Translations under genes and position numbers: made by a program
Shown: in pieces, positions 1 to 5,589 of the stretch
How the letters are laid out: each line of letters begins with the position of its first letter
Numbering within the stretch: the first letter of the stretch is position 1
The notes under the pieces: model-generated
What the model was told of the DNA's origin: nothing
Databases searched by the model: none
The model's input: the letters and a program-made list of their open reading frames with translations, nothing else
NCBI GenBank assembly: GCA_014384545.1
Contig: JACNFQ010000032.1
Span: 1-7,956 of the forward strand
Source: a bacterium
Lineage (GTDB): Bacteria > UBP7 > UBA6624
Direction: 5' to 3'
Length of the DNA: 7,956 nucleotides

Positions 1-1481
1 TCTTGCGAGGGCGGTACCACCTCTTTGTCCAATCTGTTCGTGGCGGGAAACCGATTCAACTCACAGAGGGAGCTTGGAGTGTTGGCTCGTTTTCGTTCCT
101 TCCTGATGGACGAATCCTCTATTCGGCAACGCCACACCCTGAAGATGACTTTAGTCAGGTGATGGAAAGTGATCTATTTGAAGTCTCCCCCGATGGGGGA
201 AAGTCCAAGAGGATTACGAAGTTCAACGGTACTCTTGACCAAGTAAGCGCATGGAGCAAGGACCGCCTCGTCGCTTTGGGAAGTGACTTGGCAAAGAGTT
301 GGGCGTCTCCCCAGTCGCTGTGGTGGGTTGAACGAAAAGGTGGAAAAACAGAGAGAATCGCCCCTGATTGGGATCGATCCATCACAGACTCTATGAACTG
401 TGATTGCCGCTTTCCTTCTCGCAATCATGCTCCTTGGATTTCACCAGACAAGAAGACGACGATCGTGGGCGTCACAGCGGGCTCTTCGGTTCGGTTGGCA
501 AAGGTGGGGTTAGAGGATAGCAAGGTTGAAATGGTTACGCCTTCTGACTGCTCGGTGTTGGGTTGGCACACCACACCAGATGGTTCTCTGCGGGCAGAGA
601 TTCGTTCTTCAATGAACACCTTCCCCGAACTGTGGTTTACAACACCTGAAGGCTCCTTTAAAGCGACGCGTCATAACGACACTCTTATGGCGTCCAAACG
701 CATCCTAAAGCCCGTCAATCTCTCCTTCAAGGCAAGTGATGGAAAAACGGTTGAAGCGTGGTTGGTTTTGCCTCGTAGACGCCAACGAAAACCCGCACCT
801 CTTATTCTGGCGATCCATGGTGGCCCCAAGACTGTGTATGGACATGCAATGATGATGGAGTTTCAGATGTTGGCGGGAGCAGGATATGGTGTCCTTTTCT
901 TGAATCCTAGAGGCTCGGATGGTTACGGAACCGATTGGGCTCATGCGGTCTTTGGAGCTTATGGCGAGCGAGATTATCAAGACCTCATGGAGGGCGTAGA
1001 CCATGCCTTGGCGGGAGGGTGGAACCTTGACGCCCATCGATTGGGTGTTCAGGGAGGGTCTTACGGGGGCTTTATGACCAACTGGATTGTGGGTCATACC
1101 AACCGATTCAAGGCTGCTGTGACGCAACGGGGTATTTCAGATTTTTCTTCCTTTTATGGCACGAGTGATATCGGGTTCTTCTTTGGACCAGAACAGATTG
1201 GGGGGACACCTTGGGAGAACCCCGAACGGTACAGCGAGAAAAGCCCTTTGACCCATATGGTAGATGTCAAAGCGGCTACCCTAATCATCCATAGTGAAAA
1301 CGACCTACGCTGTCCCATAGGACAGGCAGACCAACTTTATGCCCAGCTCAGAATCCAAGGCTCTACCGTTCAGATGGCACGATTTCCTGAAGAGACCCAC
1401 GAACTTTCTCGAACAGGCTCTCCCAACAGAAAGATGGAGAGGTTGCGCCTCTTGCTGGGCTGGTTTAGGAAGCACCTATGA
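1..1481 (+). CDS. S9 family (prolyl oligopeptidase/acylaminoacyl peptidase-type) serine peptidase, 5'-truncated by window edge
   Basis: The open frame enters from the left edge (codons from base 3) and ends at TGA 1479-1481, giving 492 visible residues. Full-length S9 acylaminoacyl-peptidase-like enzymes are usually about 600-700 residues, so part of the N-terminal beta-propeller is probably missing. The TTG at base 3 is not a credible start. Residues 1 to about 230 look like propeller blades (for example FSFLPDGRILYSA). From about 240 the alpha/beta-hydrolase domain follows. It shows the oxyanion-loop HGGP at about 272-275, the nucleophile Ser353 in GGSYGGF, Asp434 in HSENDLRCP and His466 in EETHELSR, a complete triad in the expected order. 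It should cleave short peptides, probably in the cytoplasm, but the exported state cannot be judged without the N-terminus. Its stop overlaps the thiS start (ATGA), so it is cotranscribed with the thiamine genes. No functional link to thiamine is known to me. Family call is firm; substrate is unknown. Confidence 0.93.
   Translation, partial: LRGRYHLFVQSVRGGKPIQLTEGAWSVGSFSFLPDGRILYSATPHPEDDFSQVMESDLFEVSPDGGKSKRITKFNGTLDQVSAWSKDRLVALGSDLAKSWASPQSLWWVERKGGKTERIAPDWDRSITDSMNCDCRFPSRNHAPWISPDKKTTIVGVTAGSSVRLAKVGLEDSKVEMVTPSDCSVLGWHTTPDGSLRAEIRSSMNTFPELWFTTPEGSFKATRHNDTLMASKRILKPVNLSFKASDGKTVEAWLVLPRRRQRKPAPLILAIHGGPKTVYGHAMMMEFQMLAGAGYGVLFLNPRGSDGYGTDWAHAVFGAYGERDYQDLMEGVDHALAGGWNLDAHRLGVQGGSYGGFMTNWIVGHTNRFKAAVTQRGISDFSSFYGTSDIGFFFGPEQIGGTPWENPERYSEKSPLTHMVDVKAATLIIHSENDLRCPIGQADQLYAQLRIQGSTVQMARFPEETHELSRTGSPNRKMERLRLLLGWFRKHL
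1467..1472 (+). promoter_or_regulatory. Ribosome binding site of thiS
   Basis: AGGAAG sits inside the end of the S9 peptidase gene, 5 nt before the ATG at 1478. It supports that ATG as the thiS start. It is the best-placed Shine-Dalgarno-like sequence I see in the window. Confidence 0.6.
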
Positions 1482-1675
1482 ACCTTCTTTTGAATGGACA
1501 GCCCCATACTTTTCAAGGAGAGACGGTTGATGAACTCCTCCTGAGTCTAAGCCTATCTCCTGATGGCGTCGCCATCGCGGTGAACCGAACGATTATCCCG
1601 CGATCAGATCTTGGATTGGCTCGACTAAGTCCTGATGACCATGTAGAAATTGTCAAGGCGTCTCCGGGGGGATAA
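1478..1675 (+). CDS. thiS: Sulfur carrier protein ThiS
   Basis: A 65-residue ubiquitin-fold protein, the usual ThiS length. It starts MNLLLNG, carries the ETVDELL motif around residues 15-21 and the [12 protein letters not shown] strand around 31-42, and ends in the diagnostic Gly-Gly (KASPGG). In the known pathway the C-terminal glycine is adenylated by ThiF and converted to a thiocarboxylate. That sulfur is then delivered to ThiG for thiazole formation in the cytoplasm. The ATG overlaps the S9 peptidase stop (ATGA) and has an AGGA-type ribosome site. Its TAA stop shares one base with the thiG ATG (TAATG), so the two genes are probably translationally coupled. MoaD has the same fold, but the length, the VNR.I.PR signature and direct adjacency to thiG favour ThiS. 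Confidence 0.96.
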
Positions 1676-2445
1676 TGTTGAGAATCGGAGATACCCAATT
1701 GGAATCCCGCCTCGTATTGGGGACAGGGAAATACAGTTCGTTCCAACTGATGGAAGAGGCGTTGGAGGCTTCTGAAACTTCTATGGTCACTGTCGCAATC
1801 CGTCGGGTCAACCTTGATGCTCCTAAGGGAGAAGGGTTGCTGGATTTTGTGGACCGGGAAAAGTATGTCCTGCTACCCAATACCGCAGGTTGCACTACAG
1901 AAGAAGACGCCCTCTTTGTAGCCCGACTCGCTCGTGAAGCTCTGGGGACAGACCTTATCAAGTTAGAAGTGATCGGAGACCCCGATTCTCTGTGGCCAGA
2001 CCAAGTCGCCACATTATCGGCAGCAGAAGTTCTCCTTTCAGAGGGTTTTACGGTCTTGCCCTACTGCGGACCCGACCCAGTTGTGGCAAAGTCTCTGGAG
2101 AGAATGGGGTGCCATGCAGTGATGCCGTTGGCATCCCCGATTGGAAGTGGCTTGGGTATCCAAGACCCTGATACTTTGGCGATTGTAAGGAGAGCTGTTG
2201 GTCAGGTCCCCCTTATTGTGGATGCAGGCGTAGGGACAGCTAGTGACGCAGCCAAAGCGATGGAGTTGGGTGCTGACGGTGTTCTGATGAATACCGCTGT
2301 TGCTGAAGCGAAAGACCCTGTCTTGATGGCTAGGAGCATGGGCGCAGCGGTCCAGGCAGGGCGGTGGGCGTTTGAGGCGGGGCGGATGGCTAAGAGGGGT
2401 TGGGCTGACCCCTCCAGTGGTGTGGAGGGTATTCCAGGAAGTTGA
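1675..2445 (+). CDS. thiG: Thiazole synthase ThiG
   Basis: A 256-residue TIM-barrel protein of normal ThiG length. ThiG condenses 1-deoxy-D-xylulose 5-phosphate, ThiS-thiocarboxylate and dehydroglycine into the thiazole phosphate moiety of thiamine. Lys96 in [10 protein letters not shown] matches the Schiff-base lysine of characterised ThiG proteins (the same number in Bacillus subtilis). Other family blocks are [10 protein letters not shown] (11-20), [14 protein letters not shown] (66-79) and the phosphate-binding region [23 protein letters not shown] in the C-terminal third. It starts with ATG overlapping the thiS stop. A G-run lies only 3 nt upstream, so coupling to thiS translation is likely. 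The stop overlaps the start of the thiE-like gene (TTGA). All key residues are intact. The glycine imine must come from ThiO or ThiH encoded elsewhere. Confidence 0.97.
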
Positions 2446-3011
2446 AACTGCCTCGGGTGGTGGGCAGCACCCCAAGTCTGTCCGGACTCGGCACATTTCT
2501 CCCGAGAATCAAGAGAGCGGGCCATAAGGGTGTGGGGGTGTTGCAGGGTCGGGACCATTCCCTATCGCCTGAAGACCTATACTTAGCGACCCAGAGAATT
2601 CAAGAGACCTGCCCCACCCTACCCCTTCTCTTGAACGGGAGCCCCTCTATCGCTATGGATTTGGGTCTGTGGGGTGTGCACCATCCCGACTTCGCACCGA
2701 AGACGGAATGGAGAGAGGGTTGGAACTCCTCTTCACGCCTCGTCTTGACCTTTGCAGCCCACGGCATAGAAGGGATCCGTAGAGGGGAGAGTTGGGGTGC
2801 GGATGCCCTGCTCATTTCTCCTGTAATGCCCCCCTCGCCCAAGAGTACAACGATGAAGCCCCGGCGCCCATTAGGTTGGACAGGTCTTGGAGAACTCGTA
2901 CTGACCACACCCCTGCCCCTCTTCGCACTGGGTGGATTGGGTCGGGGTGATTTGGGTACTGCACGATCCCATGGAGCACATGGTATTGCAGGGATAGGAG
3001 CTTTTTTCTAG
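2442..3011 (+). CDS. ThiE/TenI-like protein (degenerate thiamine phosphate synthase or thiazole tautomerase)
   Basis: A 189-residue TIM-barrel protein of the TMP-TENI fold, slightly shorter than typical ThiE (about 205-215). Recognisable blocks are [22 protein letters not shown] (about 62-83, where ThiE has I-N-D-...-GVHLGQ), the AAHGIEG region (ThiE: SAHT.EE), [15 protein letters not shown] (ThiE: ADYIGFGPVFPTxTK) and [12 protein letters not shown]...[12 protein letters not shown] (ThiE: VVAIGGI...GADGVAVVSAI). Several ThiE substrate residues look replaced: the metal-binding Asp of IND is Gly, the Ser before AH is Ala, and both Thr of TxTK are Pro. TenI proteins also lack some of these, so a thiazole tautomerase or a diverged synthase are both possible. 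The TTG at 2442 overlaps the thiG stop. GGAGGG (2424-2429) lies 12 nt upstream, and a GTG at 2457 is an alternative. Its stop shares CTAG with the convergent regulator gene. Confidence 0.78.
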
Positions 3012-3490
3012 GAAGAGGAAGGCTGAGGGGGGGCATAGACCCACTGGACCTTCAGTTGGGGGCGTAGACCTGCTTCGTTGATAGTCTGAACCAAAGCGTC
3101 CAGGTCTAGAGGGCGATTCTCTCCTTGAACCATCACCAGAACTTCTTTCCCCTCGGCATCCACCGGATGAGGCTCTAGGAGGCGTTGCCCCCACCCCTCA
3201 ATGCCCCTTTGGAGACGGGCTATAGGGTCGGCTCCCGCCTTAATCAGTTGCCGTAGCGCTTCAACGATTCGGTCACCCTTTGCGAGGCGAAGAACTTTCT
3301 TCCTCCCTTCAATTTCGGCAAGGAGAATGCCCTGTTCCACCAAAGAGCGCACTTCTCGTGAGACATTCGTACTGTGCCCATCTACCATTTCGGCAAGTTG
3401 TCGGACATGGAAAACGGAGAGCCCCGACAGATAGAAAACAGACAACAAGTCGGCTCGCAACCGAGACCCAAACAACTTCTTGAGTGGCAT
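3008..3490 (-). CDS. Winged helix-turn-helix transcriptional regulator with a nucleotidyltransferase-remnant C-terminus
   Basis: A 160-residue protein. Residues 4 to about 70 form a winged helix: LFGSRLRADLLSVF (helix 1), VRQLAEMV, then the recognition-helix region STNVSREVRSLVEQGIL and the wing AEIEGRKKVLRL. This pattern is typical of the wHTH that often precedes an MNT-type nucleotidyltransferase domain (LFGSKTR...VRELA...N.S.REL..LE..GLL...R.GR.K.Y.L). The C-terminal part (about 100-155) ends VLVMVQGENRPLDLDALVQTI..AG....LKVQWVYAP. That resembles the last strands and helix of such a domain, but the GSFARG...DxD catalytic motif is absent. I infer a DNA-binding repressor that lost enzymatic function. 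The ATG (3490-3488) has no Shine-Dalgarno sequence. A TAAAAT box 9 nt upstream and three palindromic sites in the promoter suggest autoregulation. The regulon is unknown; the tail-to-tail thi operon is not controlled from here. Confidence 0.85.
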   Translation of the reverse strand: MPLKKLFGSRLRADLLSVFYLSGLSVFHVRQLAEMVDGHSTNVSREVRSLVEQGILLAEIEGRKKVLRLAKGDRIVEALRQLIKAGADPIARLQRGIEGWGQRLLEPHPVDAEGKEVLVMVQGENRPLDLDALVQTINEAGLRPQLKVQWVYAPPQPSSS

Positions 3491-3491
3491 A

Positions 3492-3571
3492 TGGGATATA
3501 TTTTACCCCAGTATCGCGTCTTTGGGGTCTTTTTTATCCCATTTGGGGGCTTTGGGTACTTTTTAGCCCCA
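3492..3571. promoter_or_regulatory. Array of three 19-nt near-palindromic operator-like sites
   Basis: Three sites share TGGG-N11-CCCA ends. On the + strand they are TGGGATATATTTTACCCCA (3492-3510), TGGGGTCTTTTTTATCCCA (3523-3541) and TGGGTACTTTTTAGCCCCA (3553-3571). Read on the - strand they fit TGGGRYWAAAA-NNNN-CCCA with an A-rich centre. Start-to-start spacings are 31 and 30 bp, close to three helical turns, so dimers would sit on the same face of the DNA. The first site ends one base from the regulator's ATG and covers its putative -10. Binding by the adjacent wHTH protein is an inference from position. Confidence 0.65.
3500..3505 (-). promoter_or_regulatory. Putative -10 box of the wHTH regulator, near-leaderless
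   Basis: TAAAAT on the - strand is separated from the ATG by 9 nt (ATATCCCAT), so transcription would begin at or within a few bases of the start codon. No clear TTGACA-like -35 is seen at the expected distance. The box lies inside the first 19-nt palindromic site, so a protein bound there would block the promoter. Confidence 0.4.
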
Positions 3572-3598: not shown

Positions 3599-3744
3599 CC
3601 CTAAAGCAAGCGTGAAAGAAAAGGGGTGGGCTTGGGAAAGAACGACCTCCCTAGAAAAACGACAAGGAAGGGGTGTATGAGGGTCGGGGCTCACCAAAGA
3701 GCGTAATCGTTCGTTCTTTGGAGGGCATTACTTTCACTTTAGGG
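3599..3744. repeat. Long interrupted inverted repeat with nested arms
   Basis: Three arm pairs are nested around a common centre: CCCTAAA (3599-3605) with TTTAGGG (3738-3744), GTGAAAG (3612-3618) with CTTTCAC (3731-3737), and AAAGAACGA (3637-3645) with TCGTTCTTT (3711-3719). A fourth pair, CCTCCC (3646-3651) with GGAGGG (3720-3725), is out of nesting order and could only pair in an alternative or pseudoknotted fold. The enclosed about 65 bp has no coding signal. It could be a structured RNA, a transcript end, or a decayed small mobile palindrome. I see no flanking target duplication. Confidence 0.5.
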
Positions 3745-3789
3745 TAGCTTCCACGCCTTGCCACCTGTCGGGGCGTGGACATGAGGGAC
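3737..3789. repeat. Palindromic repeat unit, copy 1 (REP-like)
   Basis: The unit opens with CTTTAGGG (3737-3744). The 39-nt core follows at 3751-3789, starting CCACGCCTTGCCACC and ending GACATGAGGGAC. The core carries an inverted repeat: TCCACGCC (3750-3757) pairs with GGCGTGGA (3772-3779), 8 bp around a 14-nt loop. An identical core lies 61 bp downstream. Its position after the M20 gene, in a non-coding gap, fits a REP-type intergenic element. Confidence 0.7.
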
Positions 3790-3795
3790 GGAGGC

Positions 3796-3850
3796 CTTTA
3801 GGGCAAGGCTCCCACGCCTTGCCACCTGTCGGGGCGTGGACATGAGGGAC
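3796..3850. repeat. Palindromic repeat unit, copy 2 (REP-like)
   Basis: The second copy has CTTTAGGG at 3796-3803 and a 39-nt core at 3812-3850 identical to copy 1. Here the base before the core is C, so the arms pair over 7 bp rather than 8. This copy also makes a competing perfect hairpin with its leader: GGCAAGGC (3802-3809) and GCCTTGCC (3816-3823), 8 bp around a 6-nt loop. Confidence 0.7.
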
Positions 3851-3862
3851 AGCAGACCAGAA

Positions 3863-3945
3863 GGACGCTTGCGTCCGGCTCTGCGCCGGAGCACCTGAAA
3901 TGGTGGCTCGGAGAGCCACAAACCCCGACCTAACGGAGAGCCACA
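3863..3945. repeat. Cluster of three short perfect hairpins plus a 12-nt direct repeat
   Basis: Three hairpins follow one another. GGACGC (3863-3868) pairs with GCGTCC (3871-3876). TCCGGC (3874-3879) pairs with GCCGGA (3885-3890) around 5 nt, sharing bases with the first. GTGGCTC (3903-3909) pairs with GAGCCAC (3913-3919) around GGA. The sequence CGGAGAGCCACA occurs at 3909-3920 and again at 3934-3945. The cluster lies immediately after the M20 stop on the - strand, so it may protect or end that transcript, although no clear U-run follows. Confidence 0.5.
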
Positions 3946-3954
3946 GCCCCCCGC

Positions 3955-5589
3955 CTATTTCTTGGGGGTTTTCTTCTTTCTCTTCTTCTTAGGTGCTGGG
4001 GGCGGAAACAGCGCCTCCAAGAGGCAAACAAGGGTGTGGGGCACCACTCGGGTTACGTCATCTATCAAAACGCGCTCTTCGGGGCTATGGGCACCATACC
4101 CACTGGGACCTAAGTTAATCAAGGGCAATCTGACCTTATTCCCTATCCCCTTTGGTCGTTTTATTTTCAAGGGTTGAGCCGTGATAAACTGTATCCAAGC
4201 ATCTCTTGCCTCGTGGACCAAGGAAAGGTCAGTCACATAAGGGTAAAACGGCTTCTTTTTCCAACAAACCCCTAAGTCCTTACCTGATTGCTTTAAAGCG
4301 ACATCAACGGCATCCTTGAACCGAACATATCCCTTCCCACTTTCCCAATCAAAGCTGGGATACATAGGAGGAATCAAACCCACCACAATCCAAGGTGTTC
4401 GAATCTTTTGGTACAACGCACTGTCCAAGAACTTCTCTCTACAAAACTCTCTCAAGTCGTCCCCTTCAGTAAAGTTATACGCTTTTTCCACCAACTCGGT
4501 GGGATCAAGAAAGATCGGACTATTCAGTTTCTTTCCCTTGGGCACTCGCGCCTTGAAAAGCTCTTTAAGGGCTTCATCCACTTCCTCTGTCACAATCTCC
4601 AACACTTCAGCAGGTTTTCGCTTCATGGTCGGCACATGGAGATACCCCCAAAACTCGCCAGGAACGGTGGTATCGTACTTATCCCTCAAATCAGTTCCCC
4701 GCAACATCAAAGGTGGGGGCAAGGGCTCGCCATCAACATCTTCTCGGAGAGCTTTGCACCCCTCTAATCTCTGGACAATAGCGGATCCAATCAACAGCCC
4801 TGAAGGGAGGGGATCCGATTCCACTTCTGCCGCATGGCGCGTGGGTCCTCGGTAGTAAATACCCACCAAGACCTTCCCCATCACTCCCATATGAATCTCT
4901 CGCTCTTCCTTGGGGGCGTCCTTGGCGGGCTCCCAAAAATCAGTCCCCACAACACCCACTAAGCGTATCTTCTCGCGGCGCAACAGCTGCCCCATCAAAG
5001 GAATCGCATTTCGCATTCCTGATGAATCTCCTTCCTCATCTGGAGTCAACAACAAAGCAAGACTTACGTCTTCGTCTTCCATGGCCAAGAGGGTCTCGAC
5101 CATAGCAGCGACACCACCCTTCATGTCCAGTGTTCCACGCCCCCAAACGAAGTCCTCTCCCTTTAGGTCTTCCACAGCACAATCGCTGAGCAAGGTTCTG
5201 TTATCCATTACTTTGTCGGAGTCACCCGCCGCCAATTCACCACGCAAACTTGAAAGCAACTTGGGGGGATGAGTCGCTACGGGCTCCAAAAACCCATAAT
5301 CCTCCATTCCTGTTGTGTCAATATGCCCCACCATCAAGAGCCCCTCTTTGTTCTTTCCTCTCTTGACAGCAGCCAAAGCGAACTTCTCTTCGCCTGGATC
5401 ATCAGGACCATCCCCCACGATGTAGGTCAACTTGACAACGGACACCCCCCCATTGCTCCGCCGCCTAATATAACTCTCAATAAACCTAAGAATATCCTCT
5501 TCTCCATACGACCCTGTTTCGCTGCGTAGAGAAACGAGGTCCAAGAGGAGATTTCGGATTCGGTTGGGATCGGGTGTGGGAAGTCGCAT
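3955..5589 (-). CDS. M20 family metallopeptidase, RocB-like (arginine utilisation protein family)
   Basis: A 544-residue protein with the long, insertion-rich M20 layout of the RocB group rather than the about 400-residue ArgE/DapE type. Metal and catalytic motifs are present in order: GHIDT (His89, Asp91), FVWGRGTLDMKGG (bridging Asp155), LTPDEEGDSSG (Glu185 catalytic base, Glu186 ligand), GTDFWEP (Asp217) and a C-terminal GPSGYGAHSPEE (His501). Residues RHAAEVESDPLPSGLLIG (251-268) fit the lid/dimerisation segment. It should hydrolyse an amide bond in an amino-acid or peptide substrate in the cytoplasm with two Zn or Co ions. RocB is linked to arginine use in Bacillus, but its reaction is not established. 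It ends in an unusual lysine-rich tail, PPPAPKKKRKKKTPKK. The ATG at 5589 is the first possible start after an in-frame TAG at 5601-5599. The gene lies 32 bp after the mutase. Confidence 0.9.
   Translation of the reverse strand: MRLPTPDPNRIRNLLLDLVSLRSETGSYGEEDILRFIESYIRRRSNGGVSVVKLTYIVGDGPDDPGEEKFALAAVKRGKNKEGLLMVGHIDTTGMEDYGFLEPVATHPPKLLSSLRGELAAGDSDKVMDNRTLLSDCAVEDLKGEDFVWGRGTLDMKGGVAAMVETLLAMEDEDVSLALLLTPDEEGDSSGMRNAIPLMGQLLRREKIRLVGVVGTDFWEPAKDAPKEEREIHMGVMGKVLVGIYYRGPTRHAAEVESDPLPSGLLIGSAIVQRLEGCKALREDVDGEPLPPPLMLRGTDLRDKYDTTVPGEFWGYLHVPTMKRKPAEVLEIVTEEVDEALKELFKARVPKGKKLNSPIFLDPTELVEKAYNFTEGDDLREFCREKFLDSALYQKIRTPWIVVGLIPPMYPSFDWESGKGYVRFKDAVDVALKQSGKDLGVCWKKKPFYPYVTDLSLVHEARDAWIQFITAQPLKIKRPKGIGNKVRLPLINLGPSGYGAHSPEERVLIDDVTRVVPHTLVCLLEALFPPPAPKKKRKKKTPKK

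Follow-up and report, generated by a model that had tools for sequence, protein, structure and literature searches.

The promoter of a winged-helix regulator that has not been described before, although of a familiar kind, carries three phased 19-bp palindromes. The sequence-only reading that these sites serve the regulator to control its own expression is very likely right. The whole model, in which a dimer of the 160-amino-acid protein binds 19-bp palindromes, represses its own promoter, and binds a small conserved regulon, is likely to hold. The regulator probably switches itself off and helps to control the building of the envelope in a poorly known phylum. The analysis pairs a regulator with putative operators and gives a first outline of a putative small regulon (envelope, division, and pyrimidine genes) for a phylum of which three genomes were examined. 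The stretch of DNA analysed (the window) is 7,956 nt long and contains the following features:
2442–3011, forward strand: thiE-like gene, tail-to-tail with the regulator gene, the 3' ends overlapping by 4 nt, as in the relatives.
3008–3490, reverse strand: 160-residue regulator with an N-terminal winged helix and, tentatively, a C-terminal remnant that resembles a nucleotidyltransferase (MNT) domain but lacks the catalytic motif.
3492–3510, reverse strand: putative proximal operator TGGGGTAAAATATATCCCA, which includes the −10 box and is followed by T and then ATG.
3500–3505, reverse strand: putative −10 box TAAAAT, the best −10 candidate, inside the proximal operator and conserved in both relatives.
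3523–3541, reverse strand: putative middle operator TGGGATAAAAAAGACCCCA, whose right arm ACCCCA occupies the −35 position and is separated from TAAAAT by 17 nt.
3553–3571, reverse strand: putative distal operator TGGGGCTAAAAAGTACCCA, the most degenerate copy in the window.
3955–5589, reverse strand: M20-family peptidase gene, which lies next to the regulator on its upstream side in each of the three genomes.

The three sites match TGGG-N11-CCCA, and their starts are 31 and 30 bp apart, which confirms the spacing reported from the letters of the sequence. The chance expectation for this pattern in the whole window is 0.32. A fourth match lies inside thiE (2953–2971) and resembles a chance occurrence; four copies were reached in none of 200 shuffles. 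When the 170-nt promoter region was randomized 200,000 times with a first-order Markov model, three sites never occurred. The distal copy differs from TRGRRTNAAANNNAYYCYA at three positions, and the proximal site is the best match to the consensus rather than the weakest.

The nearest copy had also been said to cover the −10 box and to stop one base before the start codon, and TAAAAT (3505–3500) indeed lies inside the proximal site, which ends 1 nt before ATG. Promoters were assigned by reading the sequence against consensus. The distance from TAAAAT to ATG is 9 nt in the window and 7 nt in the relatives, with no Shine-Dalgarno sequence between them; therefore, the regulator transcript is probably leaderless and starts at ATG or no more than a few bases from it. 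Since the proximal site covers the −10 box of this apparently leaderless promoter, autorepression is the simplest reading. No TTGACA-like −35 box was found upstream of TAAAAT in the regulator promoter. A TAAAAT positioned 6–9 nt before ATG, without a ribosome-binding site, is shared by the regulator (3490–3505) and a TolQ-type gene elsewhere in the genome (L083, around 2073–2121), and this phylum may often use leaderless transcripts.

The phylum sample comprises three genomes, that of the window (G000) and two of a second genus (G001 and G002), which are close relatives of each other, so that few independent events are represented. A search for bacterial 16S rRNA gave no match in any of the three assemblies. 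The regulator gene is present in one copy in each, and close orthologues were found only in G001 and G002. Their proteins are 40–42% identical to that of G000, and the local G+C content is about 37%, compared with 54% in G000. Both orthologues are preceded by three 19-bp palindromes in the same register, at −78, −48, and −18 relative to ATG (−81, −51, and −20 in G000), with a spacing of 30/30 instead of 30/31. From distal to proximal, the orthologous sites are TAGAGTGAAAGTTACTCTA (TGGAGTAAAAGTTACTCTG in G002), TGGAATAAAATTCACTCTA, and TAGAGTAAAATATATCCTA, the last of which ends on the A of ATG. The arms differ between the genera, TGGGGT in G000 corresponding to TAGAGT or TGGAAT in G001 and G002, whereas the A-tract is kept and all three genomes share the segment GTAAAATATATCC unchanged. 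The replacement of G/C-rich bases in both arms, with symmetry, register, and A-tract preserved, is the pattern expected if a dimer-binding site is under selection. It is a clear case of operator arms that changed between genera while the number of sites, their spacing, and the A-tract were retained. The operators overlap the regulator's own core promoter and are conserved in the orthologues.

The TGGG core proposed initially is too narrow as a definition, since the orthologous sites are TAGAGT and TGGAAT palindromes. The operator is better written as TRGRRT-N7-AYYCYA with an internal AAA, a 19-bp imperfect palindrome. As a definition of a regulon, TGGG-N11-CCCA alone is too loose and was rejected, because it gives 85 sites compared with 48 for the control.

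Between the M20 peptidase gene and the operators (3730–3960) lies a dispersed repeat, matched 41 times in the genome at 72–96% identity, its own copy included, and it holds a 43-nt unit twice (3747–3789 and 3808–3850). The vicinity of this repeat is what could favour an origin of the palindromes as part of a dispersed element, or a function of theirs as RNA. However, the sites lie outside the repeat and their register is conserved in another genus, the proximal site ends at ATG and leaves no leader to fold, and the arms of 4–6 bp enclose loops of 7–11 nt. We consider an RNA or repeat origin extremely improbable, and the RNA role was rejected, as there is no Rfam match.

The regulon statistics rest on pattern searches, with the same pattern reversed as the control. 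Zero-mismatch matches to TRGRRTNAAANNNRYYCYA number 5, 5, and 5 in G000, G001, and G002, compared with 1, 0, and 1 for the reversed pattern. When one mismatch is allowed, the genome-wide count of the motif exceeds that of the control little or not at all, and sites present in a single genome only are therefore weak candidates. Places were called intergenic or coding according to the longest non-overlapping open reading frames. Fourteen of the 15 zero-mismatch places are intergenic, as opposed to 2 of the 32 reversed-pattern places examined (Fisher p about 5e-9, a value that overstates independence, because G001 and G002 are kin and 7 of the 15 places belong to the regulator's own promoter). 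With these seven left out, 7 of 8 places are intergenic. The only exception lies inside lpxK of G000 (C19:29525), 481 bp from the lpxK/mraZ site described below, and is either a second auxiliary operator or a chance match. Of the one-mismatch places, four fall between genes, namely the lpxK/mraZ and TolQ-type sites of G000, the pyrE site of G001, and the distal site in the regulator promoter of G002; the others lie within genes. A fifth place was nominally called intergenic (G002 C26:38930), but it adjoins masked sequence and looks like part of a coding region. Regulators without the sites, and sites strewn at random elsewhere, would have spoken against the proposal. Instead, the copies concentrate between genes and two regions are conserved between the genera, which provides a glimpse of the predicted regulon:
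lpxK/mraZ, divergent intergenic site at the start of the dcw cluster: G000 C19:29044, G001 C3:248634, G002 C45:10164; both genera.
Large secreted SdrD_B protein/pyrE-like phosphoribosyltransferase, divergent: G000 C36:10563, G001 C6:25859, G002 C17:3800; both genera.
Site before a MotA/TolQ/ExbB gene: G000 C52:2073; G000 only.
Site before an NAD-dependent epimerase gene: G000 C32:23620; G000 only.

The name pyrE comes from a reading of the sequence and from a match to phosphoribosyltransferases, which exceeds the cut-off in G002 but falls short of it in G000. The TolQ-type and epimerase sites were looked for at the orthologous promoters of G001 and G002 and are absent there. A zero-mismatch TAGAGTTAAAAGTGCCCCA is located just past a small rph-linked gene in G001 (C3:33315) and G002 (C42:8608); it is conserved within the genus, and no counterpart was found at rph in G000. 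Because just two target regions are conserved, envelope and growth as the theme of the regulon is only a suggestion.

We hypothesize that the 160-residue regulator, presumably as a dimer, binds TRGRRT-N7-AYYCYA palindromes with an internal A-tract. Three such copies, at intervals of about 30 bp, slightly less than three turns of the helix, would make up its own promoter-operator. Occupation of the proximal copy, which extends from the −10 box up to the start codon, would block RNA polymerase and result in negative autoregulation of a leaderless transcript. The regulator would also bind single copies in front of the small conserved regulon, between lpxK and mraZ and between the gene of the SdrD_B-domain secreted protein and pyrE. 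The TolQ/ExbB-type and NAD-dependent epimerase genes are perhaps additional targets in G000. The sites themselves, their register and conservation, the change of their arms between the genera, and their recurrence between genes are observed; we infer that the regulator protein is the binder of the sites, as well as its dimerization, cooperativity, repression, and the sign of its action at the targets.

The target sites vary in where they lie with respect to the putative promoters. In the regulator promoter, which has no TTGACA-like box, the −35 position is taken by an arm of the middle site, and this leaves room for activation from the middle and distal sites. Dimers bound there (near −41 and −71) could activate at a low level of the regulator and the proximal dimer repress at a high level, and the protein would be an activator at its targets. 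The TolQ-type gene of G000 shows the same geometry, and in G001, and likewise in G002, a TTGACA-18-TATACT promoter follows the mraZ site at a distance of 7 nt. Nevertheless, the proximal site of the window is nearest to the consensus, not weakest, and the mraZ promoter looks strong unaided, and we regard such dose-dependent autoregulation as unlikely.

Boxes bound by MraZ in E. coli have TGGG cores. The resemblance of the window's sites to them, and the position of one conserved site next to mraZ, raise the question of whether the operators belong to another regulator, such as MraZ. Like MraZ in its control of the dcw cluster, the winged-helix regulator would act at the mraZ promoter region. 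However, known MraZ sites are direct repeats, in Mollicutes (AAAGTGKN3)3 (PMC5282649), whereas the sites described here are inverted repeats centred on the promoter of the winged-helix gene, and TGGG is lost from them in G001 and G002. At mraZ, the shared motif is a single inverted repeat and not a tandem of direct repeats, whereas the triple array is at the winged-helix gene. Ownership of the operators by MraZ or another regulator is therefore very unlikely, and autorepression by the winged-helix protein is the reading that we retain.

The regulator appears to be a winged-helix protein with a decayed nucleotidyltransferase domain, the assignment of the C-terminal part being tentative. The three orthologues have an identical recognition-helix region, GHSTNVSRE. 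Direct comparison with known families gave weak matches, none of which reaches its cut-off; those over the winged helix include PF25212 (E 3.5e-4), NF033788 (E 5e-4), and AF_1382 (PDB 2qvo). PDB profile matches with E above 0.02, FliD among them, were attributed to chance. The best matches outside the phylum are proteins that combine a winged helix-turn-helix with a nucleotidyltransferase domain (wHTH-MNT). A scan of genome contigs recovered only haloarchaeal wHTH-MNT proteins, and a scan of viral contigs no relatives. In an hhalign comparison with three wHTH-MNT proteins from outside the phylum, columns 2–139 of 160 are aligned with a probability of 98.5 and 33% identity. The winged helix is the best-aligned part; on the nucleotidyltransferase side, only the strand-helix segment after the motif aligns. 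The motif itself, GS-x(8-12)-DxD, is absent from all three orthologues, and decay of the domain is suggested because the profile alignment coincides with this absence. Two AlphaFold2 predictions (pLDDT 40 and 43) were too poor for a fold search, so the domains are assigned from sequence alone.

The regulator resembles wHTH-MNT (MNT/Pol-beta-like) fusions in its N-terminal winged helix and along most of its length, but is shorter and lacks the catalytic motif; we know of no triple operator among these relatives. The likeness of its winged helix to ArsR/SmtB-type and HVO_A0114-type domains is sub-threshold: the ArsR/SmtB family score is 19.8 bits, compared with a cut-off of 55, and the three-orthologue alignment has no invariant Cys that could correspond to the conserved metal-binding one. 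The λ repressor CI at OR is an autoregulated repressor with multiple operator units. NanR is reported to bind a repeat operator as three dimers (PMC8012715). The likeness to CI and NanR is that a single promoter holds several operator copies in phase, one of which covers the core promoter, whereas the protein families are unrelated and the spacing, motif, and regulon differ.

One concrete hypothesis is that the relic of the nucleotidyltransferase domain may serve as a ligand pocket. We speculate, at long odds, that the protein is a phylum-specific switch derived from a catalytically dead wHTH-nucleotidyltransferase, which senses a nucleotide through the relic fold and couples lipid A synthesis, the division and cell-wall cluster, the output of surface protein, and the supply of pyrimidines.

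The gene order thiG-thiE, regulator, M20 peptidase is common to the three genomes. The operators lie beyond the 3' end of the M20 gene, which is therefore not obviously under their control. On the other side of the regulator, positions 1478–3011 hold a thiS-thiG-thiE-like run, the ThiE-like protein of which matches TMP-TENI but scores far below the thiE equivalog cut-off.
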